Below are positions 6,098-55,304 of a DNA stretch of 64,000 bases, in pieces. The stretch is taken from positions 1 to 64,000 of the forward strand of contig JAKSIF010000010.1 of assembly GCA_024398965.1 (NCBI GenBank). The letters are read 5' to 3'. Positions within the stretch are counted from its first letter, which is position 1, and each line of letters begins with the position of its first letter. This DNA is from Fibrobacter sp. (lineage in GTDB: Bacteria; Fibrobacterota; Fibrobacteria; Fibrobacterales; Fibrobacteraceae). Below the pieces are notes generated by a model, which was not told the origin of the DNA, ran no database searches, and saw only the letters and a list, made by a program, of their open reading frames with translations. The position numbers were made by a program, and so were the translations under genes.

Positions 6098-6177
6098 GCC
6101 CTAAGATTTAGATATTTAGAGAAAATGAAACCACCCAATTCAAGGGATTTTCCGTTTACCGGCGGAACCACCACCTC

Positions 6178-6273
6178 GGCGACGTTTCAAAGCCATCTTG
6201 GCGACGTTCCGAAGCCACCTCGGCAACGTTCCAAAGCCATCTTGGCGATGTTCCGAAGCCATCCTGGCGACGT
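6178..6273. repeat. 22-bp tandem repeat array (4 copies plus a partial fifth)
   Basis: Units start at 6178, 6200, 6222, 6244 and 6266, each beginning GGCGACGTTCC or a close variant and continuing into AAGCCATCTT. Even- and odd-numbered units differ consistently (TTTCAAAG or TTCCAAAG against TTCCGAAG). The array sits between the stop of nfo and the start of the GH9 gene, both read leftward, so it would lie in the GH9 upstream region or the nfo 3' end. There are no spacers, so it is not CRISPR. Confidence 0.85.
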
Positions 6274-12320: not shown

Positions 12321-15300
12321 TTACTTCTTAGGAGGACGCTTGTAACCGAAGGGCTTCAGCATATCTTCGCTAGTCTTGATCACGTCACCCTTCTTCTTGC
12401 CAGTGGGGTCCTTAACCGGCGGCAAGGTACACTGCAGTTCAGAACGGAGGTTGACCTGAACCTTGTACAGGTAAGAACCTGTTGCAAGGAGCTTGCCGTT
12501 TTCGGTATGGACGTTGCCATCCTTATCCGGTTTCATTTCGAAGTATGCGTTCAGCAAGGCAGCGTCGTTGGTGTAGCTAGGATCGTTCAGCTTCTGAGTG
12601 AAGCTGTAGTAATCCACAAAGCCGCCCAGGTTGGTGTAGATCCAGATGTGAACATCCATCTTGGAGTTGTACAGGTTAGCCTGGTCAATCTTGCCCTTGA
12701 AGTCGCTGTTGAACTTGTTCTGGAACTTTTCAGAGCAGTAGTCACGAACGTATTCTTCAACAGTAACCTTTTCACTGTTCTTGGCATCAACGCCTTCCAG
12801 CGGAACAAGGCCATCGGAGCTAAGCAAGTCATCCAAGGTAGCCATACCACCCACGTCATTCACCATGGGGAGCTTCACATCCATAGCGAGGGTCGGGCCA
12901 AGGTGAGAGCTGTGGCCAGGATACGGTTCCTTGCCGCTGCCTTCCTTGGTATCGAAGGAGCCACCAATCAAGGTTTCAACTTCCTTACCGGTAGAGGGGT
13001 TCTTAATGCTTACAGCATAGGTTTCACCTTCCTTCGGCGGGTTGGAAGCGTAGTATCTGTCAACGCGATCCTGGGTCATCTCGGTAACCGGGTTCACCAC
13101 TGCCACGTCAAGATCCTTACCGTCCTTCATGATCACGAAGATGGTGTCAGAAGCTTCGTTGCCGGCCTTGTCCTTATAGAAGCGGACAATGGAGTTGAAG
13201 CCCTTTTCAAGGCCCTGAGTAGTCAGGGTATCCTGGATAACGCCATCCACAGACCAGACCACGTTCACGAAGTTGGAGCGGATTACAGCACCGCCTTCGG
13301 GGCTGAGAATTTCAACCTTCGGGCCAACCTTGTCGAGAACGATGAATACAGAGGTAGAAGCAGCATTGCCGTACTTGTTCACGAAGGTGTAGGATACATT
13401 GTAACCGGTATCGCCTTCGTCGTTCTTGATGATGTTACCCTTTTCGTCAACAACGTAGCTAACAGTCACGGTGTTGCCAGTGGTTTCATCAACATAGTCG
13501 TAAGTCACGGTCAAAGCACCAGTGGAAATCTGCGGGACCTTGGAACCAGAATTGGAGCCGCTAGAAGAACCGCTGCTAGAGCTAGAGTTGTGGCTGCCGG
13601 AGCTAGAGCTGGAGGGGTTCTTGTTGGGGTTCTTGCTGGGATCCTTGTTAATGGCCTCAACACCAGCGGTAGTCAGCAGGTTACCATCGGTATCGGTAAC
13701 CAGAGCTTCACCAGTCAAGGCGTCAGCCTTGTAGGAAATGGTCACATCCTTGCCACCGATAGTGGTTACGTAGGAAACGGTAATCACTTCGATGGAATCA
13801 ATCTTGCCCTTGCTACCAACCACGGGGACCTTGACAGGATTGCCAGACTTGTCCGTGTTGTAAGATACGGTATAGGTCTTTCCATCAACCTTTTCTTCGT
13901 AAGAAACCTTGACCTGATCGTCGTTCATCGGGACGCGAGAAACACCAGAGCTCGGGTTTTCATTCAGGATGAGCTCACCCTTAACCTTGTTGACCTGCGT
14001 GTAGGTGTCCTTAGATACATGTACAGTATCCAGGTCAACCTTGACGGTGAACGTATCGGTCTTGCCAGAAGCAGGATCCAGCACAGTCACAACAACGTCG
14101 TTCTTGTTGGAGTTGACATAGATGTTAGTGTCAGCCTTATCGGTTCCCTGAACAACGGTGTAGATGTTATCGGCTTCGGTTGCATCGGAACCTGCGGTAA
14201 CAGTAACAATCGGAGTTGCATCGCTAAAGAAGATTACCACGGTATCAGAGCCAGCTTCGTTCTTAGCCGGATCCTTATAGGTGATAATGATGCAGTTCGG
14301 ACCATCATGGAGAGTGGTATCCATAGACATCTCTACCCCATCCTGAGTCCAAGTAATGGTGTTGTCAGGAATGTTGGTGTAAAGGGTGTCGTGACGGTCT
14401 GCGATGTCCTTCTTGGTCCAGGTAGAATCAGAGTTATCAACCTTGGTAATTTCAACCACAGACTTTTCGATTACATCCTTAACCTTGATGGTGACTGTTG
14501 CTGTATCGGCATAAGTACCATCGGAAACCTGAACCTTGATAGTGTAGACAGAGTCGGTTTCGTAGTCCAGAGGTTCGGCAACCTTGATGGTACCATCCTT
14601 CTTGACATCGAACTTTTCACATGCCTTGGAACCGGTTTCGCAAATCGGAGTGAAGGTCAGTTCGCTGTATTCCTTCCTGGTATCCGGATCTTCAGCTACG
14701 ATCTTGCCAACAGAATCACCGGTCTTGATATTTTCGTTCACGGTGAACTTCTGGTCATCAACAGTCGGAGCTTCGTTTACGTCACCAACCTTAATAGTAA
14801 TGGTAGTATCCTTCTTGATGCCAGTCGGATCAGTTACAGAAACCTTGATATTGAAGGACGGAGTCGTTTCGTAATCAAACTTGGTGCTATCCTTAACAAG
14901 GATCTTACCATCTTCGGTAACAGTCACAAATTCGCTGGTGCCGATCAGAGCATAAGTACGTTCTTCCTTGTTTTCCGGGTCATCGAGGTCTTCAGAGGTA
15001 ATGGTGCCAATCAGGTCCTTGTTACCCGGATTTTCGGGGATTTCAAATTCGGTAGAAGTAATGTACGGATCTTCCTTGATGTTGGTCAAGGCGATGTGCA
15101 TGGTATCCACCACAAAGAGTTCCGGCTGCTTCTTGTCCTGGACCTTCACAACCAGGATGTAGGAATCCTTGTCATCTTCGTAGTTGAAGGACTTCTTGGT
15201 CGTGATAACACCAGCTTCGTCAACAGCGAACAGAGTGGTATCGCCACCGACGGCAATGACCATGTTGTCTCGGAAGCTCGGATCCTTTGTATCCAGGTCG

Positions 15301-18300
15301 TCACCCCACTTGATGGTATCCACAACGGAACCCTTCTTGTTGTGTTCCGGGAATTCGAAGTCCTGCTTTACAATGACCGGAGCTTCGTTCACGTCGATGA
15401 CACTGATGATACGGACAACGGAATCCTGACGATCGGTTGCGTCGGTCACGATCAAGGTAACCTTGTGTTCCGGATTAATGGTTTCGTAGTCAAGCTTGCT
15501 GCTATCCTTGACGAATACAACAACCTTATACTTGTCGCCATCCTTAGCCAATTTCACATCGAAGAGGGAATCCACACCAGTCTTGTTGACGTCCTTCAAG
15601 GTCGGAACAAGCTTTGTAACCTGGTCTTCATCCGGGTCTTCAACAACATACTCAAACACAACGGTATTGGTCGGAACGTTTTCTTCCACACCGACTGTCA
15701 GGATCTTGCCATCCTTGTCGCCGCTACCGCTAGAGCAGTTGGCAACACACTTCTTGTCGTCTTCAGTATCGTCCTTACCATTGTCGTCATCGTCAACCAC
15801 AATCGTCGGGTTTTCATCCTTGTCGTTCAAGGTAATCTTCACAGTAACGGTGTCAGCCATGTTTTCGAAGCCATGAGCCTTACCATTGTCAGTTACGATA
15901 ACCTTGACCACGTAGATACTATCCTTTTCGTAGTCGAGGGCATTGTCCTTGTTAACGGTAATTACGCCGTTTGCGTCAACCTTGAAGATTTCTGCATCGC
16001 CCTTGCCGTCCTTGTCGTCGCCATCGGCCAGAGTGTAAGTGAGTTCAGCCCACTTATCCGGGTCGGTTGCAACAGCTACGCCAACGGTGTCGCCAATCTT
16101 GGAATTTTCATCAACACGGAGGCCATCCTTCTTGAGTTCTTCCTTGTTGACGAAGGTCGGGGCTTCGTTCACGTCCTTGACCTTAATAATACGGACCAGG
16201 GTGTCGGCAACATTCTTGTCGGTCTTGTCGTAAACAATGACAGACACATTGTAAATAGAATCGATCTTTTCGTAATCAAGCTTGGAGCCGTCACGTACAG
16301 AAACCACGACCTTGGAAGATGCTTCATCCACAGGCACAACTTCAATCTTGAAGAGAGAGTCTGCAATGTAAGGCTTGGTGGTACCATCCTGAACCAGGGT
16401 GGCAGCAAGCTTTTCAAGGTCACCCTTGTCTTCGTCCTTTACGACGTAGGCAAAGACAACGGTATTGGTCGGAGAGTTTTCATCGATACCCACGGTAACA
16501 ACACGCTTGTCGTCAGACGGATCGTTAGGATCGTCTTCGCAATTTTCAAGGCAGTTGTCATCAGAGTCGTCATCGCCATCGCCGTCACCGTCGGGGATGA
16601 TTTCCGGATTTTCATTCTTGTCGTTCAAGGTAATGGTTACAACCACGGTATCGGCCATGTTTTCGAAGCCATGAGCCTTACCATTGTCGGTTACGATAAC
16701 CTTGACCACGTAGACGCTATCCTTTTCGTAGTCGAGGGCCTTGTCCTTGTTAACGGTGATCACGCCGTTTGCGTCAACCTTGAAGATTTCTGCATCGCCC
16801 TTGCCGTCCTTGTCGTCGCCATCGGCCAGAGTGTAAGTGAGTTCAGCCCACTTATCCGGGTCGGTTGCAACAGCTACGCCAACGGTGTCGCCAATCTTGG
16901 AATTTTCATCAACACGGAGGCCATCCTTCTTGAGTTCTTCCTTGTTGACGAAGGTCGGGGCTTCGTTCACGTCCTTGACCTTAATAATACGGACCAGGGT
17001 GTCGGCAACATTCTTGTCGGTCTTGTCGTAAACAATGACAGACACATTGTAAATAGAATCGATCTTTTCGTAATCAAGCTTGGAGCCGTCACGTACAGAA
17101 ACCACGACCTTGGAAGATGCTTCATCCACAGGCACAACTTCAATCTTGAAGAGAGAGTCTGCAATGTAAGGCTTGGTGGTACCATCCTGAACCAGGGTGG
17201 CAGCAAGCTTTTCAAGGTCACCCTTGTCTTCGTCCTTTACGACGTAGGCAAAGACAACGGTATTGGTCGGAGAGTTTTCATCGATACCCACGGTAACAAC
17301 ACGCTTGTCGTCAGACGGATCGTTAGGATCGTCTTCGCAATTTTCAAGGCAGTTGTCATCAGAGTCGTCATCGCCATCGCCGTCACCGTCGGGGATGATT
17401 TCCGGATTTTCATTCTTGTCGTTCAGGGTAATCTTCACAGTAACGGTGTCGGCCATGTTTTCAAAGCCACGGTCCTTACCGTTGTCGGTTACGATAACCT
17501 TGACCACGTAGATGCTATCCTTTTCGTAGTCGAGGGCATTGTCCTTGTTAACGGTGATTACGCCGTTTGCATCAACCTTGAAGATTTCTGCATCGCCCTT
17601 GCCGTCCTTGTCGTCGCCATCAACCAAGGTGTAAGTGAGCTCAGCCCACTTATCCGGGTCGGTTGCAACAGCAACGCCAACGGTGTCGCCAATCTTGGAG
17701 TTTTCATCAACACGAAGGCCATCCTTCTTGAGTTCTTCCTTGTTGACGAAGGTCGGAGCTTCGTTAATGTCGCGAACATGAATATCCTTGGTCAAGGAAG
17801 CTACGCCATCAAGAGTATCCTTAAGGGTAAGGGTGATGTTGAAGACGGAGTCGCCACGGGCATCCATGATAGCTTCAAAGTCCAGAAGTTCATTGATTTC
17901 AGTGGTCTCGTCACCATTGTTCTTAACGAACAATTCGATGAACATGGAATCATTGTCATCAGACACCAGACGGATACCGAACAGATCTTCAGCAGATACC
18001 TTGCCGTCAACCTTCTTGTTGTCTACGAAGGAAACGCTGAGCTGTTCAAGGCCATCGTAGCCGTCTTCGTCGTGAATCGGCCAGGTCTTGATAACAAAGT
18101 CAACAGGACGGTTTTCCTCAACATCGTAGAACAGCTTGCCATCGTCATCGATAGTCGGATCTTCGTTTTCATCATTAATCTTGATGGTCACTGTAGCTTC
18201 AGAGGACTTGGAAGGTTCGCCCTTATCGGCAACGGTAATCTTCACCTCAATAGACGGCTGAGTTTCATAATCGAATTCTGCATCCTTCTTCACGGTAATC

Positions 18301-21300
18301 ACACCGGTTTCAGGATCAATGTCAAAGTACTTGTTGTCTTCAATAGTATAAACCAAGGTACCATTGGGCACGGTATCGCGGTCAATATCAGAGGCGTTGA
18401 CGCCTTCCTTATCGCCCTTCTTCCAACCATCGGGAAGAGCCTTGTCACCACCCTTGGCAAATTCGCTCACTGCGAACACCTGACCTTCAGCGACTACGTT
18501 TTCTTCGTTTTCATCAAGAACAATAATGTCCTTGGTCAAGGAAACAGATTCGTTGTCATGGTCGGTCAGGGTAATGGTCACATTGAAGACGGAATCGCCA
18601 TTGGCCTTAAGGATTTCTTCAAAGTCCAGAAGTTCATTAATCTCGGCAGTCTCGTCACCGTTGTTCTTAACGAACAGGTCTACATGCAGGGAGTCGTCAT
18701 CGCCCTTATAGACCTTGACGTCAAAGATGTCGGTCGCCTTGACAGCACCTTCTACAGTACCGTTATCGACCAGGGTCACAGACACGTTTTCTGCAGTTTC
18801 TGCTTCATCCGGGTCAATGATTGTCCAGGATTTGAGAATGGTTTTAACAGGAGCATTTTCGCTAATGACATAGCTAGGCTTACCGTCATCGTTGAACTTA
18901 GGAGTTTCGTTTTCATCACCAATCTTGACAGTCACTACAGCTTTAGAGGACTTGGAAGGTTCGCCCTTATCGGCAACGGTAATCTTCACCTCAATAGTCG
19001 GCTGAGTTTCGTGGTCAAATTCAGCACCCTTCTTCACGGTGATCACACCGGTTTCAGGATCGATATCAAAGTACCTGTTGTCTTCAATCGTGTAAACCAA
19101 GGTACCATTGGGCACGGTATCGCGGTCAATGTCGGAAGCGCTGACGCCTTCCTTGTCACCTTCCTTCACCCAACCCTCGGGAAGAACCTTGGTTCCTTCT
19201 GTAGCAAGTTCACCAACTTTAAATACTTGATTTTCAGCAACTACGTTTTCTTCGTTTTCATCAAGAACAACGATGTCCTTGGTCAAGGTTGCAGTCTTGC
19301 CGTCATGGTCAGTCAAGGTAATGGTCACATTGAAGACGGAATCACCATTGGCCTTAAGAATTTCTTCAAAGTCAAGAAGTTCATTAATCTCGGCAGTCTC
19401 GTCACCGTTGTTCTTAACGAACAGATTTACATGCAGAGCATTGTCTTCGCCCTTATAGACCTCGACGCCAAAGATATCGTTTGCCTTGACAGCACCTTCT
19501 ACAGTACCGTTATCGACCAGGGTCACAGACATGTTTTCTGCAGTTTCTGCATTATCCGGGTCAATGATAGTCCAGGACTTGAGAACGGTATCTACAGGAG
19601 CATTTTCACGAACAACATAGCTGGGCTTACCGTCATCGTCGAACTCGGGCTTTTCGTTGACATCGCTCAACTTGATAGTCACCTCAACAGAAGTTCCCTT
19701 AATCGTAGCAGGATCTTCGCCATCGCCACCATCAGAAACTAGAACACGTACAACATAGATGCTATCCTTTTCGTAATCAAGTTCAGCATCTTCCTTAACG
19801 TAGATAACGCCATTTTCATCAATTACAAACGGCAAATCTTCATCGGAACCTTCCACAGCATGAATGGAGTAGGTAAGTTCAGCGAAGGTCTTAATTGCGC
19901 TGTTCTTATCCGGATCCGTTGCGATAAAACGACCATCATCTTCATCTGCAACCGGATCACCGTCTTCAGGTACGACGGTATGAACACGGACACCCTTTGC
20001 ATCTTCCGGAACTGTAAAGAACTGTTCCTCAGCTTCGGGAGCGTCATTTTCATCAACGAGAGAAATTGTTACGAGACCAGTATGGCTCTTCTTGCCGTTT
20101 CCATCAGTGGTTGCGGCATCATCCGTTACAGTAACTTTCAGTGTATAGGTAGGCAGAGTTTCAAAATCAAGTTCAGCAGTGCTCTTTACAGAAACAGAGC
20201 CGTCTTCATTGACTTCAAACAGAGCAGACACAATGTTGTAGTATTCTTCAGTATAATCCTCATCGAAGGCCTTGCTGAGTTCATACTTCATTACATCACG
20301 AGGTTCTGTTTCTGCAACAGGAGAATCCTTTTCCACGTCGGTTGCGGTAATGGAACCTTCAACCTTATGAGTGTTTTCACCAACCAGAATTACAGATTCA
20401 TTCAACACCGGCGGATCGTTTTCTGGATCAACATGAATTGAAATCAACCCCAAATCACTATCTTGTTTCGAAACGGAGGAATTTCCTTCCACATCCATCA
20501 CAGTAAATACAAACGTTGTGTAAACGCCATCACGACTGTACTCATCTTTGTCATTGATGTACTTGAAATCACCATTGGCCAAACGTTCCAAAGCAATAAA
20601 GGATCCAGCAACAACAGGTTCTCCTCCAAGAGTGAGAACGCCCTTTTCAGGAAGTACTGTAATGGTGATACCACTCTGTTCATACATGCCCTTATAGAAG
20701 AAATCTTCTGCTGAGAATGCGTGAATATGGTCCTCTAGCATGCGAACAGAAGCCGGCTTGGTAGACGGATTTTTCTGAGCATCCTGCAATCTCAAGTCAA
20801 AATAACCTTCACGGACGTTGCCATCAAGCACGGCGCCACTCAAGTTCATCACATGAAGACGAATCATTTCGTCAGGTTCAACCACGTCATCAATTTTCAC
20901 ATTAATGTGAATGCTTTCGTTTCTGCTATTCACGTCAGCAGAATCGGTACCAGCCCAGATAACAACCTGGGCAGCCTTATTTTCGGAGCAAAGCGGGAAC
21001 GGATAGGGGTTCACTTCAGATTGATCAACGGTAATATCTGCTGCACTGGCAACATTCGAATATTCGTTAGTCAAATATTCAAAGCAGTAGTCGAAGTAGA
21101 CGTTGACCTTAGTCTTTTCACTCAGCTTAACAGGAACCGGCACGAAGGTATCGTTTTCCTTAAAGACCAGAGAAGCAAAAACCTCGGGAGTAAAGCCAAG
21201 GATAGGAGGATCGAACGGCACATAGCGGAAGCCAGAGCCATCAAAGAAAGCATTAACGTCAATGACGTCAGCGAGCAACTGACCAGCCAAAGTCATGGAC

Positions 21301-22313
21301 TGCCTTACAGTGATTGTGCCCGTAGAAATAAAGGTTCCCTGAATAACATCGCCTTTCTGCATTGCAGCCCAGTCAATATTTTCCGTCGTATAGAACAAAA
21401 GATTTCCGGCGTAATCGGAATTCTTGACAGGAGTTGCAGAACCGGACACCCACTGGAGTTTTTCTTCATCATACACAGCATCCTTGTCCATATAAGACAC
21501 GATAATCTGGTTATGAGAAGGAATACCTCCCTTGAAGCCATTGGTGAGGAAAATTCTAGTCAGACGACCACCATAGGGCATGCGAACTTCAAGAAGGTTC
21601 TCGTTCGTAAACTGGATATGGTCGATAATGATGTCGTATGTGCCAGCACCCTTAGGAACATCAATCGTCGGATGACCGAAAGGATATGCAGCACCCTTGA
21701 GTTGGTCGCGGTTATTATTTGTCTCGATAGCCGGATAAACAACAGCTTCGTTAGCTCCAAGCTTCGGGATCCTCAAATCAGTGTTAATCTGCGGAACAGT
21801 TGAAGGACAGTTTTCGTACTCCGCACCCACAAACTGATGGTCAGGATCGTTATGAGCCTTGAGGTATTCATTATTCGCTGTCCCCTTTACACACTGCGTC
21901 CCCAAAATAAGGTTTGCAGAACCACGCCAGTTGGCCTCCTGGTTGATGGTGATATTCCCAAGGACACGAACCGGACCTGAGGTCAAGGAGTCATTTCCAT
22001 CACTCATGATCAGGTTACCACCAACAAGCACCGGACCACCGATAGTATGCTTGTTGTTACCATTATGCAGGTCAAGGTTACCATCCGCAGTACCAAACCA
22101 ACCAGACTTATCCGGTACAAGGATTTGCTGACCAGAGAAGTTGATTCCATGGGCACCAAACATCTTGTACTTCATCAGGTCTTCCCAGAAGCCCTGCTGC
22201 TTGGAATCATCGATACCGTCAAAGTACAACGGAGCTACATCCGCAGCCATTGCAGGTACCACCATAGCCAAGGCCAGGGTCAATTTTCTAAGCAAATTCT
22301 TTCCAAAACTCAT
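12321..22313 (-). CDS. Giant secreted cadherin-repeat surface protein (3330 aa)
   Basis: Signal peptide (1-23, ending AMA), then an N-terminal domain of about 400 residues starting ADVAPLYFDGIDD with beta-rich GGPVLVGGNL and VRVLGNI strands, then a long array of cadherin-type repeats (about 540-2600) marked by DVNEAP, DENEENV and DYEKDSIY motifs that supply inter-repeat Ca2+ ligands. Asp-rich loops containing DGDGDGDDD plus a Cys pair (near 1640 and 1905, diverged near 2170) resemble thrombospondin type-3 calcium loops. A Ser/Asn-rich linker lies near 2890-2925. The C-terminal 400 residues end with a FlgD-like fold (HIWIYTNLGGFVDYY, ATGSYLYKVQ) and a basic tail KPFGYKRPPKK. A GGAG ribosome site precedes the start. 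I infer a cell-surface or secreted adhesin, exported by Sec and perhaps a type IX-like route. The next gene upstream is a shorter paralog. Confidence 0.85.
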   Translation of the reverse strand: MSFGKNLLRKLTLALAMVVPAMAADVAPLYFDGIDDSKQQGFWEDLMKYKMFGAHGINFSGQQILVPDKSGWFGTADGNLDLHNGNNKHTIGGPVLVGGNLIMSDGNDSLTSGPVRVLGNITINQEANWRGSANLILGTQCVKGTANNEYLKAHNDPDHQFVGAEYENCPSTVPQINTDLRIPKLGANEAVVYPAIETNNNRDQLKGAAYPFGHPTIDVPKGAGTYDIIIDHIQFTNENLLEVRMPYGGRLTRIFLTNGFKGGIPSHNQIIVSYMDKDAVYDEEKLQWVSGSATPVKNSDYAGNLLFYTTENIDWAAMQKGDVIQGTFISTGTITVRQSMTLAGQLLADVIDVNAFFDGSGFRYVPFDPPILGFTPEVFASLVFKENDTFVPVPVKLSEKTKVNVYFDYCFEYLTNEYSNVASAADITVDQSEVNPYPFPLCSENKAAQVVIWAGTDSADVNSRNESIHINVKIDDVVEPDEMIRLHVMNLSGAVLDGNVREGYFDLRLQDAQKNPSTKPASVRMLEDHIHAFSAEDFFYKGMYEQSGITITVLPEKGVLTLGGEPVVAGSFIALERLANGDFKYINDKDEYSRDGVYTTFVFTVMDVEGNSSVSKQDSDLGLISIHVDPENDPPVLNESVILVGENTHKVEGSITATDVEKDSPVAETEPRDVMKYELSKAFDEDYTEEYYNIVSALFEVNEDGSVSVKSTAELDFETLPTYTLKVTVTDDAATTDGNGKKSHTGLVTISLVDENDAPEAEEQFFTVPEDAKGVRVHTVVPEDGDPVADEDDGRFIATDPDKNSAIKTFAELTYSIHAVEGSDEDLPFVIDENGVIYVKEDAELDYEKDSIYVVRVLVSDGGDGEDPATIKGTSVEVTIKLSDVNEKPEFDDDGKPSYVVRENAPVDTVLKSWTIIDPDNAETAENMSVTLVDNGTVEGAVKANDIFGVEVYKGEDNALHVNLFVKNNGDETAEINELLDFEEILKANGDSVFNVTITLTDHDGKTATLTKDIVVLDENEENVVAENQVFKVGELATEGTKVLPEGWVKEGDKEGVSASDIDRDTVPNGTLVYTIEDNRYFDIDPETGVITVKKGAEFDHETQPTIEVKITVADKGEPSKSSKAVVTVKIGDENETPKFNDDGKPSYVISENAPVKTILKSWTIIDPDEAETAENVSVTLVDNGTVEGAVKATDIFDVKVYKGDDDSLHVDLFVKNNGDETAEINELLDFEEILKANGDSVFNVTITLTDHDNESVSLTKDIIVLDENEENVVAEGQVFAVSEFAKGGDKALPDGWKKGDKEGVNASDIDRDTVPNGTLVYTIEDNKYFDIDPETGVITVKKDAEFDYETQPSIEVKITVADKGEPSKSSEATVTIKINDENEDPTIDDDGKLFYDVEENRPVDFVIKTWPIHDEDGYDGLEQLSVSFVDNKKVDGKVSAEDLFGIRLVSDDNDSMFIELFVKNNGDETTEINELLDFEAIMDARGDSVFNITLTLKDTLDGVASLTKDIHVRDINEAPTFVNKEELKKDGLRVDENSKIGDTVGVAVATDPDKWAELTYTLVDGDDKDGKGDAEIFKVDANGVITVNKDNALDYEKDSIYVVKVIVTDNGKDRGFENMADTVTVKITLNDKNENPEIIPDGDGDGDDDSDDNCLENCEDDPNDPSDDKRVVTVGIDENSPTNTVVFAYVVKDEDKGDLEKLAATLVQDGTTKPYIADSLFKIEVVPVDEASSKVVVSVRDGSKLDYEKIDSIYNVSVIVYDKTDKNVADTLVRIIKVKDVNEAPTFVNKEELKKDGLRVDENSKIGDTVGVAVATDPDKWAELTYTLADGDDKDGKGDAEIFKVDANGVITVNKDKALDYEKDSVYVVKVIVTDNGKAHGFENMADTVVVTITLNDKNENPEIIPDGDGDGDDDSDDNCLENCEDDPNDPSDDKRVVTVGIDENSPTNTVVFAYVVKDEDKGDLEKLAATLVQDGTTKPYIADSLFKIEVVPVDEASSKVVVSVRDGSKLDYEKIDSIYNVSVIVYDKTDKNVADTLVRIIKVKDVNEAPTFVNKEELKKDGLRVDENSKIGDTVGVAVATDPDKWAELTYTLADGDDKDGKGDAEIFKVDANGVITVNKDNALDYEKDSIYVVKVIVTDNGKAHGFENMADTVTVKITLNDKDENPTIVVDDDDNGKDDTEDDKKCVANCSSGSGDKDGKILTVGVEENVPTNTVVFEYVVEDPDEDQVTKLVPTLKDVNKTGVDSLFDVKLAKDGDKYKVVVFVKDSSKLDYETINPEHKVTLIVTDATDRQDSVVRIISVIDVNEAPVIVKQDFEFPEHNKKGSVVDTIKWGDDLDTKDPSFRDNMVIAVGGDTTLFAVDEAGVITTKKSFNYEDDKDSYILVVKVQDKKQPELFVVDTMHIALTNIKEDPYITSTEFEIPENPGNKDLIGTITSEDLDDPENKEERTYALIGTSEFVTVTEDGKILVKDSTKFDYETTPSFNIKVSVTDPTGIKKDTTITIKVGDVNEAPTVDDQKFTVNENIKTGDSVGKIVAEDPDTRKEYSELTFTPICETGSKACEKFDVKKDGTIKVAEPLDYETDSVYTIKVQVSDGTYADTATVTIKVKDVIEKSVVEITKVDNSDSTWTKKDIADRHDTLYTNIPDNTITWTQDGVEMSMDTTLHDGPNCIIITYKDPAKNEAGSDTVVIFFSDATPIVTVTAGSDATEADNIYTVVQGTDKADTNIYVNSNKNDVVVTVLDPASGKTDTFTVKVDLDTVHVSKDTYTQVNKVKGELILNENPSSGVSRVPMNDDQVKVSYEEKVDGKTYTVSYNTDKSGNPVKVPVVGSKGKIDSIEVITVSYVTTIGGKDVTISYKADALTGEALVTDTDGNLLTTAGVEAINKDPSKNPNKNPSSSSSGSHNSSSSSGSSSGSNSGSKVPQISTGALTVTYDYVDETTGNTVTVSYVVDEKGNIIKNDEGDTGYNVSYTFVNKYGNAASTSVFIVLDKVGPKVEILSPEGGAVIRSNFVNVVWSVDGVIQDTLTTQGLEKGFNSIVRFYKDKAGNEASDTIFVIMKDGKDLDVAVVNPVTEMTQDRVDRYYASNPPKEGETYAVSIKNPSTGKEVETLIGGSFDTKEGSGKEPYPGHSSHLGPTLAMDVKLPMVNDVGGMATLDDLLSSDGLVPLEGVDAKNSEKVTVEEYVRDYCSEKFQNKFNSDFKGKIDQANLYNSKMDVHIWIYTNLGGFVDYYSFTQKLNDPSYTNDAALLNAYFEMKPDKDGNVHTENGKLLATGSYLYKVQVNLRSELQCTLPPVKDPTGKKKGDVIKTSEDMLKPFGYKRPPKK
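15840..17760. repeat. 798-bp in-frame tandem repeats within the cadherin giant
   Basis: A 266-codon unit made of two cadherin repeats plus an Asp-rich loop recurs with a period of exactly 798 bp. Two consecutive copies are almost base-identical (for example 16169-16423 against 16967-17221). A third copy shares its first cadherin module but diverges in the loop and second module. The near identity, including synonymous sites, points to recent duplication or continuing gene conversion. Confidence 0.9.
18160..19650. repeat. 747-bp in-frame tandem repeats within the cadherin giant
   Basis: Two adjacent 249-codon units with a 747-bp period each contain a DDGKPSYV-start cadherin repeat and a DENEENVVAE-start repeat. 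They share long stretches (for example 18541-18711 and 19288-19458) but with more substitutions than the 798-bp set, so this duplication looks older. Confidence 0.85.
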
Positions 22314-22634: not shown

Positions 22635-25600
22635 TCACTTTTTCGAAGGACGCTTGTAACCGAAGGGCTTCAGGAGGTCATCATTGGTCTTAACCACATC
22701 ACCCTTCTTCTTGCCAGAGGCATCGTCCACCGGGGGCAAGGTGCAGTGCAGCTTAGACCGGATGTCCACCTCAACCTTGTACAGATAGGCACCAGTAGCA
22801 TAGAGCTTGCCAGATTCGGCGCGCACATTGCCATCCTTATCCGGTTTCATCTCGAAGAACATCTGCAGGAGACCAGCCTCGTTGGTAAAGTCCGGATCAT
22901 TCAGCGGCTGGGTAAAGCTGTAGTAGTCCACGAAGTTACCCAAGGTGGTATAGATCCATACATGGACCTTCATCTTGGTATCGTAGAGGCTTGCCTTGTC
23001 AAAGCCGTTCTTGTAGTCGAACTTGGTATCGCAGTATTCGCTAGCATACTTCTCCACAGAAACCTTACGGCTGCCCTTGGCATCCACACCTTCCAGGGCA
23101 ACAAGTCCGTCAGGACCAATGAGGTCGTCCAGGGTAGCAAGTCCGCCAATGGAATTAACCACAGGGAGCTTCACATCCATAGCCAAAGTCGGGCCAAGGT
23201 GAGAGTGGTGTCCCGGATAAGGTTCCGCACCGCTTCCATCCTTAGTGTCGAACGAGCCACCGATCAAGGTTTCAACTTCCTTGCCTGTGGTCGGATTCTT
23301 GATGCTTACAGCAAAGGTTTCGCCTTCCTTCGGCGGGTTGGATGCATAGTACCTGTCTACGCGGTCCTGGTCCATTTCAGTAACCGGGTTAACAACAGAC
23401 ACTTCAATATCCTTGCCATCCTTCATGATTACGAAGATGGTATCGGAAGCTTCGTTACCAGCCTTATCCTTGTAGAAACGGACAATGGAATTGAAGCCCT
23501 TTTCAAGGCCCTGGAGTGTCAAGGTATCCTGTTCTACCCCATCCACAGTCCAGACCACTTCAACGAAGTTGGCGCGAATAACAGCACCATCTACAGGAGA
23601 CAGGATTTCCACCTTGGGCGGAGCCTGGTCAAGAACAATGAATACAGACTGGGTAGCGGAGTTGCCATACTTATTGGTAAAGGTGTAAGATACAGAATAG
23701 CCTATGTCTCCAGAACCATTCTTGATCATGTTTCCCTTTTCATCCACTGCATAAGAAACTGTTACTGTCTTTCCTGTTGCGTCTACATAATCATAGGTGA
23801 CACTAAACAAGCCAGTTTCCTTGGTGTCTGAGTCAGAGTAGAGTTTTCCATTGGAATCAACGGACAAGGGGGCTCCTGTTGCGCCATCGGCCTTGTAGGA
23901 CACTACAACATCCTTACCATCGACCTTGGTTGTATAGGACACCGTAATGATTTCCACGGAATCAACCTTTCCCTTTGCATTGACAACCGCAGTCTTGCGA
24001 ACTTCACCATCATTGTCAGTATCATAGGATATGACTACATCCACTCCACCAATCTTCTCGGCGTAACTTACCTTGACATCGGTTCCATTCACAGGAGTCT
24101 TAACCATACCGGAGCTCGGATTTTCGTTCAGAACCGGACCATCCTTAACAACAGACTTCATGGTTTCGAAAGACTTGCTGGGTACATCCACGGAACCAAG
24201 ATCAAGCTTCACCACAAAGGACGAATCCTTGCCGTTGACCGGATCTTTCACAGAAACCTTAATGTCGTTCTTTGTGCTGTTGACGTAGATGTTTGTATCC
24301 TTTGCATCAGTACCTTCAACAATCGTGTAGATGTTTCCAGCCTCGTTCGAGTCTGCATTTGCTTCAACAGTCACAATGGGCGCAGCTGTACTCAGATAGA
24401 CAATAACCGTATCTGCGGCAGGGCCATCCAATTCTGGATCATCAAAGACCTTGATAATGACATTCTTACCTTCAGTAAGGGTGGTATCGACACAGAGTTC
24501 CTGCTTAGCACCATTGAAGGAGCAGAATAGTTGCATATCCTCAAGATTCGTGTAAATGACGTCAGGATTCTTCCAGGAAGAGTCCGCATTATCAGCCTCG
24601 GTAAACTTGATATCAGAGGGCTTAACATCGTCTATAGAAACGGTCACCTTCTTTGTAGACTTACCGCCATGGCCATCGGAAACTTCAACAACCAAAACTT
24701 CCGTCGGATTGGTTTCATAGTCTAGCTTTGCTCCGTCCTTCACGGTAACCACACCATCTTCAGAAAGTTCAAAGAACTTGGAAGGTTCAGTCAACTTGAA
24801 AGTCAAGTTTGTATCACCGGCATCAACATCTGTTGCCTTCAAGGTATCCACAACGGTCCCAGACTTAGCAGTTTCCTTAACAGAGATTTTGTCCGTGATG
24901 ATTACAGGATTTTCATTCACGTTTTCCAGGTTGATTGTGATAGTCTTGGTTACGGTCAAGGCTGAATCAGTAGCATCAGTCACCGCAACTTCCAAAGTGT
25001 AGACCAGCGGGTCCTTTTCATAATCAAGATCCTTACGGGTCATGATTACACCTTCCGGAGTAACATAAAATACGTCGGTATCGCCACCTACGGCAGTAAC
25101 AATATTCTGAGTGTATTCTGCGGAATCATCCAAGTCTCCCGTTTCAACGGTTCCAACAGTTGCACCAACACCACTATTTTCGGGAATAGCGAATTTCTGT
25201 TCTTCAAGGGTGGGCATTTCATTAACATTTTCAAGAGTAATGGTCATGGTCTTGGTAACTGTCAATGTAGGATCGGTAGTATCCGTAACTGCGACGGTCA
25301 AGGTGTACACAGAAGGATCTTTTTCGAAATCCAGATCCTTACGAGTCTTGATAACACCATCAGAAGAAACAGTGAATACAGCGGTATCACCGCCAACAGC
25401 AGTAATTACATTGTTCTTGGTAAATTCAACAGCCTTATCCAAGTCACCAGCAACGATGGTACCTACGGTAAAGCCTTCGCCACTATTTTCTTCAAGATTG
25501 AACTTTTGATCGGCAAGAGTCGGCGTTTCATTGACATTGACCAAGGTAATCGTCATGGTCTTCGTTACAGAAAGCTTCGGATCATGAGCATCTGCAACCT

Positions 25601-28172
25601 GAACAATCAATGTATAGGAGGACGAATCCTTTTCAAAGTCAAAATCCTTCTTTGCTGTGATAACACCTTCTGCAGACACATTGAACAGAGCTGTATCACC
25701 GCGTACTGCAGTAACGATGTTATTTGTCAGGGCAACAGCCGTATCTAGGTCACCATATTCAATGGAGCCTATAACATACCCCTTACCCTTGTTTTCTTCG
25801 AAAGCGAACTTCTGGTCTGCAAGGGTCGGCATTTCATTGACATCATTAACCACAATGGTCAAAGTCAAGGACGTCGCCTGAATATCATCCACCTTACCAG
25901 TGGATGCACTCTTGTCGGAAACGATTGCCTTAATTTCGATGGTGGTCTTGTCCATTTTTTCATAGTCAAGGACAACACCGTCCTTAATGGTAATCACACC
26001 CGTAGCAGGATTCATGGCAAACAGGGAATCAACTAACGCAAAGTTTACATCGGCAGGATCAAAGGTATAGACGAATTCATCGTCATCAACATCAAAGACC
26101 TTGATCGCGCCCTGCAGAGTTTCTCCGGCAGGAGTATTTTCATCAACTGTGAAGACAGTATTCTTTGCAGAAGGAGGGTCGTTAACCGGGGTAACGGCGA
26201 TACTAATCGTTGCTGAGCCAGAAACATTACCCATGACATCTTCTACAGCGAAGTTAAAGGAAGCATATTCTTCCTCATCATACTTGTCTTTGACGGCAAC
26301 AAACTGCAAATCGCCAATGCTGTCAACAGGAATCCGCACATGCTTTGTGCTAGAAACCTTTACTGTATCACCCTTATAGAGAAGGGCTCCGTTATTCACA
26401 TTGCCCTGAATGACAATGCCCTTCTGGCTTACAGGAGCCAAGGCTGTGGATTCGTAATAGAAGTCTGTAGATTTAAAGGTAAAGGCAGAATCTTCCTGGG
26501 CTACAACAGCAGCATCCTTAGTAAGAGGAGGGTTATTGGAGTTGGCTACAACCAATTCGAAATAGCCTTCACGTTTGTTACCAGGAAGAACCGCGCCGCT
26601 CAAATTGAACACTTTAAAATGAAGCGTTTCGGGAAGTTCATTAATTGTATCTGCAGCCACATTGATATACACATTGAAGGCAGAGTCAGGATACAGATGT
26701 CCTGCAGTAATTTTAACAATACCGGAATCACGGATTTCATTAATGGAGGAAATCGTTACGCTGTCTTCCTCATATACGGTATCCTTGGCCAAGCACAAAG
26801 GAAGCTTGGCAAGTTCAGTTACATTAAAGTCTTCCAAGGAGGCTGTAGATTCATCGAGATCAAAGCAATAGTTGAAATAGACATTGCTATTTGCCTTTTC
26901 CGACAGTTTAATTGGAACCTTGGAATCTTCATTATTTTCAGGGAAAGTTCCCTGAGCAAGGGCAGTGGGATCCAAATCCAAAATAGGAGGATCAAAGGGG
27001 ACATAACGAAAATCGCCAGTAATATCGGATTCAAAGTGCAGGCTATCTGCAACCAGCTGACCTGCCAAAACAAAGTGGTCCTTAATGGTAAAGGAGCCGC
27101 TGGTCATGAACGTACCCTGGTAGGAAGGTTCTATAAGAGCATCCCACACGATGTCCTTATTCGTATAGAACAGCACATTACCTGCATACTGCTTATTCGT
27201 CACATACGTAGCATTAGCCGGGATGAAATTTTCCCAACTACCGGAAGCACTATTCCAAGTCGCTTCGGGATTCACGTACACAACCTGGATAATACCGCTG
27301 TTTACGGAAGCATCAATATTGATTCCATTTTCCACATAGAAGCGAGAAAGACGGCCATCCTTATGGTCCGCATTCTGCGCTCCAGAGGGCATTCTAATGT
27401 AGAGATATTTGTGCTTTGTATGCGCTAATGTTATTTCGCTCAGGTATTCATCGTAAATCTTTTGAGTAGTATCCAGAATAGGCGGCACATCCAGGTAGAA
27501 TACTTCTCCATCCACGTTATCGGTCATGATAACAGGTTTCAGTTCCACACCAGCAGGGACATCCCACTTGGGAACCGTCAAGTGAACATCAACATTGGGA
27601 ACTTCTGCGGGGCATTTTTCATAGCCGTCTTCGGCAAAAGGAGCGTAAACATCCCCCTTGACGTTAGCCATCCAACGAACTGTTGAAATATTGACGTTAT
27701 TGGGATCCGCACCAGCAATTACAACGTCACCCTTGACACAATAATCACCTTCATAAACAGTACTAGGAGCATTGTACCAACTGGCAAGACCAACATTACC
27801 AAGAACCCTAGCTGGGCCCATCAACAATGTATCACGATCAGGACTTGTGTTTCCAGTACTGAAGTTGAGATTACCACCAACAAGAAGTGGGCCGCCAATG
27901 GTGTGCTGACCATTGTTGAATATGATATCACCGGAGGCGGTGCCATTGAAGCCACTCACTTCGGCAATAATCACGTTGCCCTTATTAAAGTTGATTCCTA
28001 CGGTTCCCCATAGTTTATACTTCATCAAATCTTCCCAGTACTGTTGTTGGGAATCTTCATCTACGCCTTCGAAGTATAGCGGAGCCACATCTGCCGCGAA
28101 AGCAGATCCAGCGAAGAGCAGGGTCATCAGCGGCAAGAAAGTTCGACTTATGTAATTCTTCAATATTTTCAT
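22635..28172 (-). CDS. Secreted cadherin-repeat surface protein (1845 aa), paralog of the 3330-aa giant
   Basis: Signal peptide (MKILKNYISRTFLPLMTLLF to AFA), then the same N-terminal domain as the neighbour (ADVAPLYFEGVDEDSQQQYW). A shorter cadherin array follows, including three clearly related repeats of about 100 residues at roughly 776-1090 (each starting NVNE-PTL-Q-F and containing AVGGDT or AVRGDT and KDLDFEKDP-type motifs). The last 600 residues parallel the giant: VEVVWTVDGVEQDTL, then a FlgD-like end (HVWIYTTLGNFVDYY, ATGAYLYKVE) and the basic tail KPFGYKRPSKK. The giant's Asp-rich Cys loops and poly-Ser linker are absent. It has its own promoter and terminator, so the two paralogs can be expressed independently. 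Function is inferred as surface adhesion or matrix. Confidence 0.85.
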   Translation of the reverse strand: MKILKNYISRTFLPLMTLLFAGSAFAADVAPLYFEGVDEDSQQQYWEDLMKYKLWGTVGINFNKGNVIIAEVSGFNGTASGDIIFNNGQHTIGGPLLVGGNLNFSTGNTSPDRDTLLMGPARVLGNVGLASWYNAPSTVYEGDYCVKGDVVIAGADPNNVNISTVRWMANVKGDVYAPFAEDGYEKCPAEVPNVDVHLTVPKWDVPAGVELKPVIMTDNVDGEVFYLDVPPILDTTQKIYDEYLSEITLAHTKHKYLYIRMPSGAQNADHKDGRLSRFYVENGINIDASVNSGIIQVVYVNPEATWNSASGSWENFIPANATYVTNKQYAGNVLFYTNKDIVWDALIEPSYQGTFMTSGSFTIKDHFVLAGQLVADSLHFESDITGDFRYVPFDPPILDLDPTALAQGTFPENNEDSKVPIKLSEKANSNVYFNYCFDLDESTASLEDFNVTELAKLPLCLAKDTVYEEDSVTISSINEIRDSGIVKITAGHLYPDSAFNVYINVAADTINELPETLHFKVFNLSGAVLPGNKREGYFELVVANSNNPPLTKDAAVVAQEDSAFTFKSTDFYYESTALAPVSQKGIVIQGNVNNGALLYKGDTVKVSSTKHVRIPVDSIGDLQFVAVKDKYDEEEYASFNFAVEDVMGNVSGSATISIAVTPVNDPPSAKNTVFTVDENTPAGETLQGAIKVFDVDDDEFVYTFDPADVNFALVDSLFAMNPATGVITIKDGVVLDYEKMDKTTIEIKAIVSDKSASTGKVDDIQATSLTLTIVVNDVNEMPTLADQKFAFEENKGKGYVIGSIEYGDLDTAVALTNNIVTAVRGDTALFNVSAEGVITAKKDFDFEKDSSSYTLIVQVADAHDPKLSVTKTMTITLVNVNETPTLADQKFNLEENSGEGFTVGTIVAGDLDKAVEFTKNNVITAVGGDTAVFTVSSDGVIKTRKDLDFEKDPSVYTLTVAVTDTTDPTLTVTKTMTITLENVNEMPTLEEQKFAIPENSGVGATVGTVETGDLDDSAEYTQNIVTAVGGDTDVFYVTPEGVIMTRKDLDYEKDPLVYTLEVAVTDATDSALTVTKTITINLENVNENPVIITDKISVKETAKSGTVVDTLKATDVDAGDTNLTFKLTEPSKFFELSEDGVVTVKDGAKLDYETNPTEVLVVEVSDGHGGKSTKKVTVSIDDVKPSDIKFTEADNADSSWKNPDVIYTNLEDMQLFCSFNGAKQELCVDTTLTEGKNVIIKVFDDPELDGPAADTVIVYLSTAAPIVTVEANADSNEAGNIYTIVEGTDAKDTNIYVNSTKNDIKVSVKDPVNGKDSSFVVKLDLGSVDVPSKSFETMKSVVKDGPVLNENPSSGMVKTPVNGTDVKVSYAEKIGGVDVVISYDTDNDGEVRKTAVVNAKGKVDSVEIITVSYTTKVDGKDVVVSYKADGATGAPLSVDSNGKLYSDSDTKETGLFSVTYDYVDATGKTVTVSYAVDEKGNMIKNGSGDIGYSVSYTFTNKYGNSATQSVFIVLDQAPPKVEILSPVDGAVIRANFVEVVWTVDGVEQDTLTLQGLEKGFNSIVRFYKDKAGNEASDTIFVIMKDGKDIEVSVVNPVTEMDQDRVDRYYASNPPKEGETFAVSIKNPTTGKEVETLIGGSFDTKDGSGAEPYPGHHSHLGPTLAMDVKLPVVNSIGGLATLDDLIGPDGLVALEGVDAKGSRKVSVEKYASEYCDTKFDYKNGFDKASLYDTKMKVHVWIYTTLGNFVDYYSFTQPLNDPDFTNEAGLLQMFFEMKPDKDGNVRAESGKLYATGAYLYKVEVDIRSKLHCTLPPVDDASGKKKGDVVKTNDDLLKPFGYKRPSKK

Positions 28173-28590: not shown

Positions 28591-28650
28591 TTAATTGTTA
28601 ATTGTTAATTGTTAATTGTTAATTGTTAATTGTTAATTGTTAATTGTTAA
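28591..28650. repeat. Heptanucleotide microsatellite (TTAATTG)8 before the phosphatase gene
   Basis: Eight perfect copies of TTAATTG plus TTAA, followed by pyrimidine-rich CATCCTTCATTC-like units up to 2 bp before the ATG at 28688. A 7-bp simple repeat can change copy number by slippage and so shift promoter spacing or leader length. In the 28173-28687 gap this and the SRP gene are the only features I see. Confidence 0.9.
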
Positions 28651-28687
28651 TCTTTCATCCTTCATTCTTCATTTTTCATTTTTCACC

Positions 28688-35785: not shown

Positions 35786-35869
35786 GCGGTCGTGGTGGAA
35801 TTGGTAGACACGCTAGCTTGAGGTGCTAGTGGGAGCGATCCCATGACAGTTCAAGTCTGTCCGACCGCA
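35786..35869 (+). tRNA. tRNA-Leu (anticodon GAG), copy 1
   Basis: An 84-nt class II tRNA. Acceptor stem GCGGTCG / CGACCGC with discriminator A; D arm GGTGGAATTGGTAGACA; anticodon stem CTAGC/GCTAG with loop TTGAGGT, giving anticodon GAG; variable arm; T arm containing GTTCAAGTC. CCA is not encoded. It lies 65 bp after secG with no clear promoter, so it may be processed from a tpiA-secG transcript. Confidence 0.97.
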
Positions 35870-37989: not shown

Positions 37990-38073
37990 GCGGTCGTGGT
38001 GGAATTGGTAGACACGCTAGCTTGAGGTGCTAGTGGGAGCGATCCCATGACAGTTCAAGTCTGTCCGACCGCA
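37990..38073 (+). tRNA. tRNA-Leu (anticodon GAG), copy 2
   Basis: Base-identical to the copy at 35786-35869 along all 84 nt; identity extends only a few bases into the flanks. Loop TTGAGGT gives anticodon GAG. This copy has its own promoter and its own terminator. Confidence 0.97.
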
Positions 38074-48296: not shown

Positions 48297-48418
48297 GTTA
48301 AAAATTAACAGTTAACAATTAACAATGAACAATTTTTAGTTTCGCGGCTGCGCCGCCATTTTTTCCAATTGTTAATCATTCATTTTTCATTGTTCATTTC
48401 GGCACAATCGCAAAGCGA
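48297..48418. repeat. Composite intergenic inverted-repeat element
   Basis: Same architecture as 2296-2418: left AACAGTTAACAATTAACAATG units, a central hairpin GGC-TGC-GCC in CGCGGCTGCGCCGCC, right CAATTGTTAATCATTC and TTTTTCATTGTTCATT units, and a second small hairpin AATCGC-AAA-GCGATT next to the ispG stop. It fills the gap between ispG and serA, both read leftward (ispG ends at 48419). Confidence 0.65.
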
Positions 48419-52736: not shown

Positions 52737-52775
52737 TTTTGGATGTGTATTTATGGAGACTTTTTGCGTTTGAGG

Positions 52776-55115
52776 CTAGTCAACGACGCGAACACGGCTG
52801 ACCTTACCATTGGAACGGTTGCGAATCAGGAAGATTCCCTGCAAGCTCTTTGCTGCTGCAGCCTTCTGCCACAAGGCAGTAGCCTCAGCCTGAGAACGAG
52901 CATTTACAGAACCAAGCTTGGAACCGTTGAAGTCAAACACGTCGAAGTGGGATACTCCAAGGGTACCAAGGTTCATCTTGTGTCCAATAATGCCATCAGG
53001 TTCAGAGGGATCTTCAGGATCAACGGGATCAACTGCGGGATCGGAAGGATCAGTCGGAGTTTCTTCCGGGTCCTTCACAATGGGATCCGGATCCTTTTCG
53101 CCCTTGTTCACGAAGTTGATGTAGTCGATGTCCATCCAATCGCCGGTGACAGTAAAGCGAAGGACGTGTTCACCCTTGGTAAGCTTTACGTCGGCACTAA
53201 CCTTGTTGTAGTCATCGTAATTCTCTTCGCCAGCTGTTGCTGCAGGAACTGCAATAGACTCGGTAATGTCCTTGCCATCCATGGAAAGCTTAAAGCCGGA
53301 AGTCGAGTTAGCAGAAGCAACAGCGGCATACATGGTGTAGTCGCCATCGGCGGCAACATTCACGGTGTATTCCAGCCATTCGTCCTTCTGGTTGTAGCCC
53401 ACAACAACGCGGTTGTTGGACTTCTTGTACAGATCAACGCCGGTATCCTTGCGGTAATCGCTGTCGCCGTGGTTTTCTGCATCGTTATCACTGAAGGAAG
53501 CGTATTCATCGCCGCGGCCAGTGCCCGGAATGTCGAAGTCTTCCATCTGGATGGTGCCAGGAATTGCCCACGGCTTGTTGCCATCATTGAAGGCCTTCTG
53601 CGGTTCCGGAGGAGTCTTGCCGCTACCTTCGAAACCCCAGCCCTTGATAGCCATGGTGGAGTCCTGAGAACCCTTGAACACCAGGAACAGCTGTTCCACA
53701 ATGCCGGAGAGGCCATCTACATCGCAGGAAGTTTCTGCGAAGGTGTTCTTGGAACCGGTCTTCTTGAGGGTACAGGTGCCAGCCAAGGTACCCGTTGCAG
53801 AACCCTTGCGGATTTCAATCTTGTTGTTGTCGGCAGTGCTTGCAGCTTCTACGGTGAAGCCTGTTGCACCCTTACCGAAATCTACACCAGAAACACGAAT
53901 CCAGGATTCGCTACGGCTAGCCAGCGGAAGCAGGAGGCTACCGGAAACCTTGCCCGGAGCATAGAGAGAACGGCTACGGACACCCTTCTGCTTGGAGCTG
54001 GTGAGAGCCGGATACCAATCGTAGGGATCGAAGTTTTCAATCTGCTTAGGACCTTCGTTGGTGCAGACCACCTGCTTAATGGTGCCGTCGGCGTTGTAGA
54101 ACATTTCGTCCACAGAAACGCTGCGATGATATCCCGGATCCGGATTGGGTTTACCGTCATCGGCAGGAATGATTTCCAGGCCGTCGTGGCCCTTGGCAAT
54201 ACGGCGGTCGTGGTAAACTACGTAGGAATGGCCCTTGAATTCGGCAATACCGTGATGGTTGTTGTTGCCGTTAATGCTCTTGCCATTCATGCTGGGGTCA
54301 CCAAGGATTGTACCCTTCCAGGTAAAGGGGCCCGTAGGGCTAGAGCCCATGCCATAGTCGATGGTAGGTGCACCCTGCTGCCAGCCAGTACTGTAAGAGA
54401 AGTAGTAAGTACCCTTGTGCTTATGGATGTAGGAGGCTTCCAGCATCTTACGGGTAGAAAGGCCATTCACCTTCACGTGAGTGCCGTTACCCACCGGGGC
54501 ATCCTTGGCATCGTTCAGCTTCACAACGTCAAAGTTATCGGTATTAGGACGGCTAGTGCTTTCGCCGCCACCCCAGGTAACATAGGTAGTACCATCGTCA
54601 TCGATGAAAATACCCGGGTCAAAGCACCAGGACACGCCATCGCAACCGATAAGGCCGTTACGACCGCCCACAAGCTTGTCGGAGCCGCGGCCCACCGCAT
54701 TGGACCAAGGACCGGCCATGCTGTCGGCCTTGATGTAGCCGATACCGCCGCCACCGCCATCGGGGAACACGATGTAGAGTTTACCCGTCTTGGGGTCAGC
54801 CGCAATGCCTGCAGCCCAAATATCGTTGATACCGCTCACCTGGCGAGCATCATAGATAATACCGAAGTCGGTCCAGTTCTGCATATCCTTAGAACGGAAA
54901 CCGTAAAGAGCCTTAATGTTATAGCCGGTGGCGTTATATGCAGCCGGATCGTCAGAGTCCGTGATGATATAGAAGTATTCATCATCGGCGGCTGCACCCG
55001 GGTCAGCCAGGTAATGATAGGTGGAAATCGGGTTGTAAGCCAAGGCACCCACGCCAAAACCGGCCATCAAACCCAAAGCATAGCATTTTTTCAATGCCGA
55101 GCCCAAAAATCTCAT
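52776..55115 (-). CDS. Secreted GH43 glycosidase with CBM6-like modules, paralog 2
   Basis: A 779-residue protein, closely similar to paralog 1 over the first 650 residues. Signal peptide; GH43 propeller with HYLADPG, CFDPGIF and LEASYIHK; a first beta-sandwich (SWIRVSGVDFGKG); CBM6 (IQMEDFDIPGTG, EWLEYTVNV, DIDYINF). A Pro/Asp/Glu-rich linker (DPEETPTDPSDP) leads to a C-terminal module unlike paralog 1: FDVFDFNGSKLGS, a helical ALWQKAAAAKS segment, then GIFLIRNRSNGKVSRVRV. The real start is ATG 55115, after AAAGGAG; the ORF is open 36 codons further upstream but those lie in the promoter. The extra upstream dyad TTCCAATTTGGAA is not present before the other two. Confidence 0.9.
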   Translation of the reverse strand: MRFLGSALKKCYALGLMAGFGVGALAYNPISTYHYLADPGAAADDEYFYIITDSDDPAAYNATGYNIKALYGFRSKDMQNWTDFGIIYDARQVSGINDIWAAGIAADPKTGKLYIVFPDGGGGGIGYIKADSMAGPWSNAVGRGSDKLVGGRNGLIGCDGVSWCFDPGIFIDDDGTTYVTWGGGESTSRPNTDNFDVVKLNDAKDAPVGNGTHVKVNGLSTRKMLEASYIHKHKGTYYFSYSTGWQQGAPTIDYGMGSSPTGPFTWKGTILGDPSMNGKSINGNNNHHGIAEFKGHSYVVYHDRRIAKGHDGLEIIPADDGKPNPDPGYHRSVSVDEMFYNADGTIKQVVCTNEGPKQIENFDPYDWYPALTSSKQKGVRSRSLYAPGKVSGSLLLPLASRSESWIRVSGVDFGKGATGFTVEAASTADNNKIEIRKGSATGTLAGTCTLKKTGSKNTFAETSCDVDGLSGIVEQLFLVFKGSQDSTMAIKGWGFEGSGKTPPEPQKAFNDGNKPWAIPGTIQMEDFDIPGTGRGDEYASFSDNDAENHGDSDYRKDTGVDLYKKSNNRVVVGYNQKDEWLEYTVNVAADGDYTMYAAVASANSTSGFKLSMDGKDITESIAVPAATAGEENYDDYNKVSADVKLTKGEHVLRFTVTGDWMDIDYINFVNKGEKDPDPIVKDPEETPTDPSDPAVDPVDPEDPSEPDGIIGHKMNLGTLGVSHFDVFDFNGSKLGSVNARSQAEATALWQKAAAAKSLQGIFLIRNRSNGKVSRVRVVD

Positions 55116-55166
55116 ACATACTCCTTTTACTTGGCACACCATCCAAGTTATACACCTAAAACTACC

Positions 55167-55222
55167 TTCCAATTTGGAACTTGCACCGGGCCGTTCCTCA
55201 CTTGTCATGGACAATATATCCA
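55167..55222 (-). promoter_or_regulatory. Operator-like dyads, GH43 gene 2
   Basis: TGGACAATATATCCA at 55208-55222, 93 bp before the start, is the same element as at genes 1 and 3. A second, perfect dyad TTCCAATTTGGAA (55167-55179) lies between it and the gene. Confidence 0.65.
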
Positions 55223-55246
55223 CACCCCAAATTGCCCAAAAAACAA

Positions 55247-55282: not shown

Positions 55283-55304
55283 GACGTGTACTTATGAAGA
55301 ATTT

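Follow-up and report, generated by a model that had tools for sequence, protein, structure and literature searches.

A cadherin-repeat array in a giant Fibrobacter surface protein: probable recent homogenisation of older tandem units

How did two long and exactly identical stretches come to lie next to each other in the stalk of a giant cadherin-repeat protein, and do they imply that the length of this protein varies? The window analysed here, a stretch of 64,000 nt, lies on contig 10 of a draft genome of Fibrobacter sp. (3.59 Mb, 151 contigs, 99.9% complete). The initial annotation had noticed a 798-nt (266-codon) tandem period within a giant cadherin gene; this period is indeed present, on the minus strand, in an ORF of 3330 aa. 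As read from the sequence, the protein starts with a signal-peptide-like N terminus. It matches the Pfam Cadherin family PF00028 (E=1e-104, 9 stretches, above the curated cut-off), with 13 individual matches, 9 of which exceed the 28.8-bit cut-off, and a local profile counts 12-14 cadherin domains. The features to which the text refers are the following, the giant being given from its N terminus onward.

12321..22313, minus strand: giant cadherin-repeat surface protein, 3330 aa (ORF, Pfam and local profile)
21204..22313, minus strand: signal sequence and N-terminal head, predicted beta-solenoid, residues ~24-370 (AlphaFold2, VIA)
20769..21206, minus strand: Calx-beta-like domain ending the head, residues ~370-515 (VIA, Foldseek)
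17824..19462, minus strand: older double-cadherin tandem array, spacing 744/747 nt (73-88% identity; dS 0.35-0.52)
17425..17756, minus strand: cadherin A1, a half-unit and the most diverged A copy (differences to A2 and A3)
16762..17425, minus strand: tract R, copy 1, probably homogenised: acidic CxxxC linker, cadherin B1 and 5' part of A2 (664/664 nt identical to copy 2)
16628..16761, minus strand: A2 3' tail, 134 nt, with private variants, apparently not homogenised (16/134 differences to the A1 tail, 14/134 to the A3 tail)
15964..16627, minus strand: tract R, copy 2, probably homogenised: linker, cadherin B2 and 5' part of A3 (664/664 nt identical to copy 1)
15830..15963, minus strand: A3 3' tail, end of the array (sequence comparison)
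12321..14480, minus strand: C-terminal region past the last cadherin, the most conserved part of the family, with the basic C terminus MLKPFGYKRP (conservation)
22635..28172, minus strand: upstream paralogue, 1845 aa, same architecture with fewer cadherins (Pfam Cadherin)

Extent and age of the identical tract

The array is laid out as A1-B1-A2-B2-A3 and not as three double units: what had been described as a third copy of the double unit turned out to be only a half-unit, the A1 cadherin (17756-17425). Exact identity at a lag of 798 nt extends over 664/664 nt (17425-16762 against 16627-15964), and none of the 146.7 synonymous sites of this tract R differs (95% upper bound of dS ~0.02), which is far beyond chance. 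The double-cadherin copies had been called almost base-identical, synonymous sites included, and this holds true for these 664 nt but not for the other 134 of the 798 nt (16761-16628 against 15963-15830), where 14 differences are found (p = 8e-12 against the 664-nt tract, Fisher test). Identity stops inside the cadherin-A domain. The 5' part of A1 differs from both A2 and A3 at 9 of 197 nt, the B-like domain that follows the A3 tail (15695-15414) is diverged, and the array is adjoined by the second, older one (~19.46-17.82 kb). Within the A tail, the differences per 134 nt amount to 16 for A1/A2, 10 for A1/A3 and 14 for A2/A3, with dS values of 0.28, 0.31 and 0.33, respectively. Judged by these tails, the three A copies appear to be similar in age, and a young pair is seen in R alone.

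We propose that an older A-B-A-B-A cadherin array was probably homogenised recently, either by gene conversion or by expansion plus contraction. From a mechanistic point of view, an old double-cadherin tandem array (A1-B1-A2-B2-A3) would sit in the stalk of a giant secreted surface protein, and one 664-nt segment of it (linker, B and 5' part of A) would recently have been copied over its neighbour. The route would be intragenic homologous recombination, presumably of the RecA type, through gene conversion or through expansion and then contraction, and the identical repeats may in turn make a change in copy number possible. After a clean 798-nt duplication, identity at a lag of 798 nt must extend over 798 nt or more, so that a tract of 664 nt argues for overwriting. 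Intragenic recombination between cadherin double units, as initially annotated, is thus supported by this identical tract, but very recent tandem amplification is not its best reading, since the A tails are equally old (dS 0.28-0.33) and identity covers 664/798 nt. A fresh and simple tandem duplication was rejected as the simplest reading because the identity leaves 134 nt of the unit uncovered and because the tails are old. All differences being clustered in 134 nt, either the neighbour was overwritten or a duplication was followed by a second event in the tail. At a looser threshold of 98.5%, the tract of this giant spans 791/798 nt, so the argument for homogenisation depends on how the 14 differences cluster. 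Overwriting would have erased the earlier history of B1 and B2.

The two-event scenario would consist of a recent 798-nt duplication of B-A, and then of a patch of at most 134 nt in the A2 tail, recombined from an unsampled cadherin copy or strain. It accounts for the perfect identity over 664 nt, and the private differences of the A2 tail are partly clustered (codons 1622-1627), in a way that resembles a templated patch. Amplification of double units is moreover seen in the genus in the form of lineage-specific repeats, and a duplication whose A2 tail was then exchanged for that of an unsampled allele would look no different. We nevertheless consider it unlikely, as it requires two events where homogenisation requires one, as the A2 tail corresponds to that of neither A1 nor A3, and as tail dS hardly differs from one pair of A copies to the next. 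A search of the whole assembly, other contigs included, revealed no further copy of the 798-nt unit, and a 15-mer search for a donor of the private A2-tail block returned only the A2 tail itself and an unrelated site with two mismatches at 46433. Assembly is another concern: the copies may in truth differ slightly, or be more or fewer in number, if they were merged or wrongly expanded during assembly. Tandem repeats are known to cause such errors (PMC8201768, PMC6868369), the exact 664-nt repeats are longer than short reads, and the merging of near-identical copies by a short-read assembler would exaggerate their identity. The initial warning that this region is assembly-prone was fair, in that a draft of 151 contigs cannot guarantee exact copy number or identity. 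However, with the unique A2 tail lying between the two copies of R, the reads have to bear out a loop and the presence of R at least twice; additional copies were found on no stray contig, and comparable tracts occur in independent assemblies, all of which makes an artefact improbable. Provided that the reads were joined correctly, the A2 tail implies at least two R copies, and additional identical units could be collapsed.

Repeats and stalk length across the genus

The giant was matched in 78 of the 80 Fibrobacter genomes searched. The comparison set comprised 40 giants longer than 2200 aa, that of the window and 39 from regions fetched by homology, nearly all of the fetched relatives being labelled Fibrobacter or Fibrobacteraceae. 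Tandem double-cadherin repeats (at least 51 aa, at least 80% identity) were found in 16 of these 40 giants, with lags of 228-290 aa, and the giant of the window was the most extreme of the 16 (400 aa at 95.3% identity, lag 266 aa); the other 24 had no such repeat. In this giant and in several others, the central domains have their best matches among themselves, whereas the flanking domains pair with those of orthologues, a pattern that points to lineage-specific expansion or homogenisation. Giants L045 and L061 share the same 15-domain layout and 94% C-terminal identity. The A domain is 99.0% identical at the DNA level to its neighbour copy in L061 and 78.1% in L045; between the two giants, the B2 beside the A domains is 100% identical and A2 only 77.5%. 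This has the appearance of parallel homogenisation at constant copy number, the same pattern as in the window, and recombination across species could contribute to it. Recent identity tracts shorter than the unit were also seen in L043 (337/711), L077 (409/720) and L061 (380/693), that is 47-57% of it. Recombination may thus overwrite adjacent cadherin domains without necessarily altering the length of the protein, and near-identical repeats alone are no proof of recent amplification.

Protein length had been expected to vary between strains. Only one (L044/L046) of the 94 pairs of giants with at least 70% C-terminal identity differs by at least 200 aa, these pairs not being independent, including many constant-length species without high-identity repeats, and comparing species represented by one genome each. 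The repeat-bearing close pairs L045/L061 and L054/L058 keep their repeat number. In L044/L046 (84% C-terminal identity), a block of 746 aa, about three double cadherins, is absent from L046, so that stalk length changes by whole units over longer time scales. Judged across species, variation in protein length looks weak, and the tuning of adhesin reach by repeat number, as initially proposed, is something that we would infer.

Periscope Proteins, namely SasG, Rib, Sgo_0707 and CdrA (Whelan et al. 2021, PMC8201768; Whelan 2022, PMC9704523), are the closest class in how the giant might work. Like them, the giant is predicted to be a long monomeric surface protein with a putative functional head at the N terminus and a stalk of beta-sandwich domains, which may fold individually and form an extended rod, and its tandem repeats of more than 50 aa have a very high DNA identity and offer a substrate for recombination. 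Candidates of this class were defined by tandem repeats of more than 50 aa with at least 80% identity (PMC8201768), and their defining feature is variation of repeat number between strains. The repeats of the giant would then be kept identical as a device that lets cells or strains differ in stalk length and hence in how far the head reaches. Units of 266 aa with 400 aa at 95% identity, a predicted layout that resembles head, stalk and anchor, and the close pair that differs by about three double units are in line with such a device. Yet length is nearly constant in close relatives, including the two repeat-bearing pairs, more than half of the giants (24/40) have no such repeat, and one unit would shift the stalk by just about two of 12-14 cadherins, so that we regard this explanation as doubtful. 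Unlike Periscope Proteins, the giant has 2-2.5 near-identical units within a stalk of mostly diverged cadherins, and most of its orthologues keep one length. The word 'cadherin' is absent from the Periscope Protein review. We class the giant among surface proteins with cadherin repeats that evolve in concert within the gene; it is Periscope-like, and at most a candidate Periscope Protein.

Predicted structure and attachment role

The stalk model (A1-B1-A2) reached a mean pLDDT of 89.7 and matched cadherin ectodomains, the best match being N-cadherin (E 4.5e-21). Acidic calcium-ligand positions (ENxP, DxD, DYE, DxNExP) were conserved across 30 aligned triple domains, in which E22, E164, D181, D248, D266, N268 and E288 were invariant and further D/E/N positions nearly so. 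The AlphaFold2 model of the head (pLDDT 83.5) shows a beta-solenoid followed by a Calx-beta-like domain. The solenoid resembles ice-binding DUF3494 beta-solenoids (VIA Z 16.6) and tapirins (VIA Z 11.5-13.2), its Foldseek matches were weak, with none at E<=0.001, and a Pfam scan of the head returned no match. The Calx-beta-like domain resembles Calx CBD1 (VIA Z 10.6; Foldseek TMt 0.7, E 0.004). In comparisons of close species, conservation is often lowest in the head, far lower than in the C-terminal part. Among the heads compared (that of the window, 22313-20660, and those of L045, L051, L061, L064, L065 and L073), identities of head and stalk were discordant: L064/L073 share 95% in the head and 71% in the stalk, and L064/L065 share 59% and 90%, respectively, suggesting that heads may be exchanged by recombination. 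We infer that an extended, calcium-stiffened stalk displays a variable head, which would probably serve attachment.

Several known systems invite comparison. With RTX adhesins bearing extender repeats (reviewed in PMC7493085), the giant shares a very large secreted protein of beta-sandwich repeats and predicted calcium-binding, stiffening linkers; unlike them, it has no RTX family match in Pfam and NCBIfam scans, its head, a predicted beta-solenoid and Calx-beta domain, is N-terminal, and its C-terminal domain is family-specific. A match to the last 340 aa was present in 79 of the 80 Fibrobacter genomes; some further genera within the family also had one, and matches from other parts of the phylum were weak. 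The last 592 aa had no Pfam or NCBIfam match, and no anchor family was matched in the giant. Tapirins are cellulose-binding surface proteins of Caldicellulosiruptor. The predicted fold of the head is like that of tapirins and DUF3494 proteins (VIA Z 11.5-16.6), but sequence identity to them is 9-20% with Foldseek E >0.001, and a shared fold is no proof of a shared ligand; a tapirin-like fold for a Fibrobacter head is suggestive. The fibro-slime proteins of F. succinogenes, such as FSU_2502, a 180-kDa cellulose-binding protein (PMC4619616), are likewise surface proteins of this genus, implicated in cellulose attachment, and are listed with PA14 and Fibroslime domains (PMC6851124). Neither domain was found in the giant by Pfam and NCBIfam scans, and it is not a fibro-slime protein. 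The available part of the F. succinogenes proteome study names one cadherin protein, of 22 kDa (Fisuc_2377; PMC4619616), and cadherin is unmentioned in four papers on F. succinogenes S85 (PMC6851124, PMC4668043, PMC3079729, PMC6204037). The literature searched contained no description of the cadherin giant family.

The giant does not stand alone: the order paralogue then giant and a gap of 175-460 nt are kept in all fetched loci that show both genes. Over the last 340 aa, the two proteins of the window are 76-78% identical (12324-13343 and 22638-23639), and the giant is nearer to its paralogue here than to the giant of any sampled relative (67-70%), as is also the case in 5 of 32 genomes, suggesting an older exchange between the C termini of giant and paralogue. 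Fibrobacter, a gut bacterium that digests plant fibre, must be able to attach to it, and little is known of the proteins involved in this attachment. Nearly genus-wide and with no description found in the literature searched, the cadherin giants are good candidates for this role. We tentatively put forward, with low confidence, a genus-wide and undescribed two-gene locus of giant modular adhesins, in which a hypervariable, exchangeable head of solenoid and Calx-beta domain would be borne by a recombining cadherin stalk, its central units repeatedly homogenised and sometimes expanded or lost, with a fixed C-terminal domain. If this holds true, the locus would serve attachment to plant cell walls as a system driven by recombination.

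Other features of the window

A gene for a GH9 cellulase lies ~6 kb downstream of the giant. Just upstream of this cellulase gene is a 22-bp (44-bp) tandem repeat (6171-6273), and the frame that holds it also holds a xylose-isomerase-like gene nearby. An antisense ORF of 2411 aa (12507-19742, plus strand), exactly opposed to the giant, was rejected as a gene and is open through codon usage: of the 3331 codons of the giant gene, just six are TTA, CTA or TCA, none of them downstream of 19742, and the near-absence of these codons from the sense gene keeps the exactly opposed frame open. An ORF of 1621 aa (52743-57608, plus strand) had no Pfam or NCBIfam match. The heptamer TTAATTG is perfectly repeated 8.7 times (28591-28651) at a distance of ~420 bp upstream of where the cadherin paralogue gene starts, and imperfect 7-bp arrays occur at 1100-1209, 2385-2416 and 48298-48334. 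Perfect 7-bp arrays of four or more copies were found only twice in 1.65 Mb of the loci of relatives, and the heptamer arrays are possible variable upstream repeats. Two tRNA-Leu genes, both with the GAG anticodon, lie 2.2 kb apart at 35786-35869 and 37990-38073.
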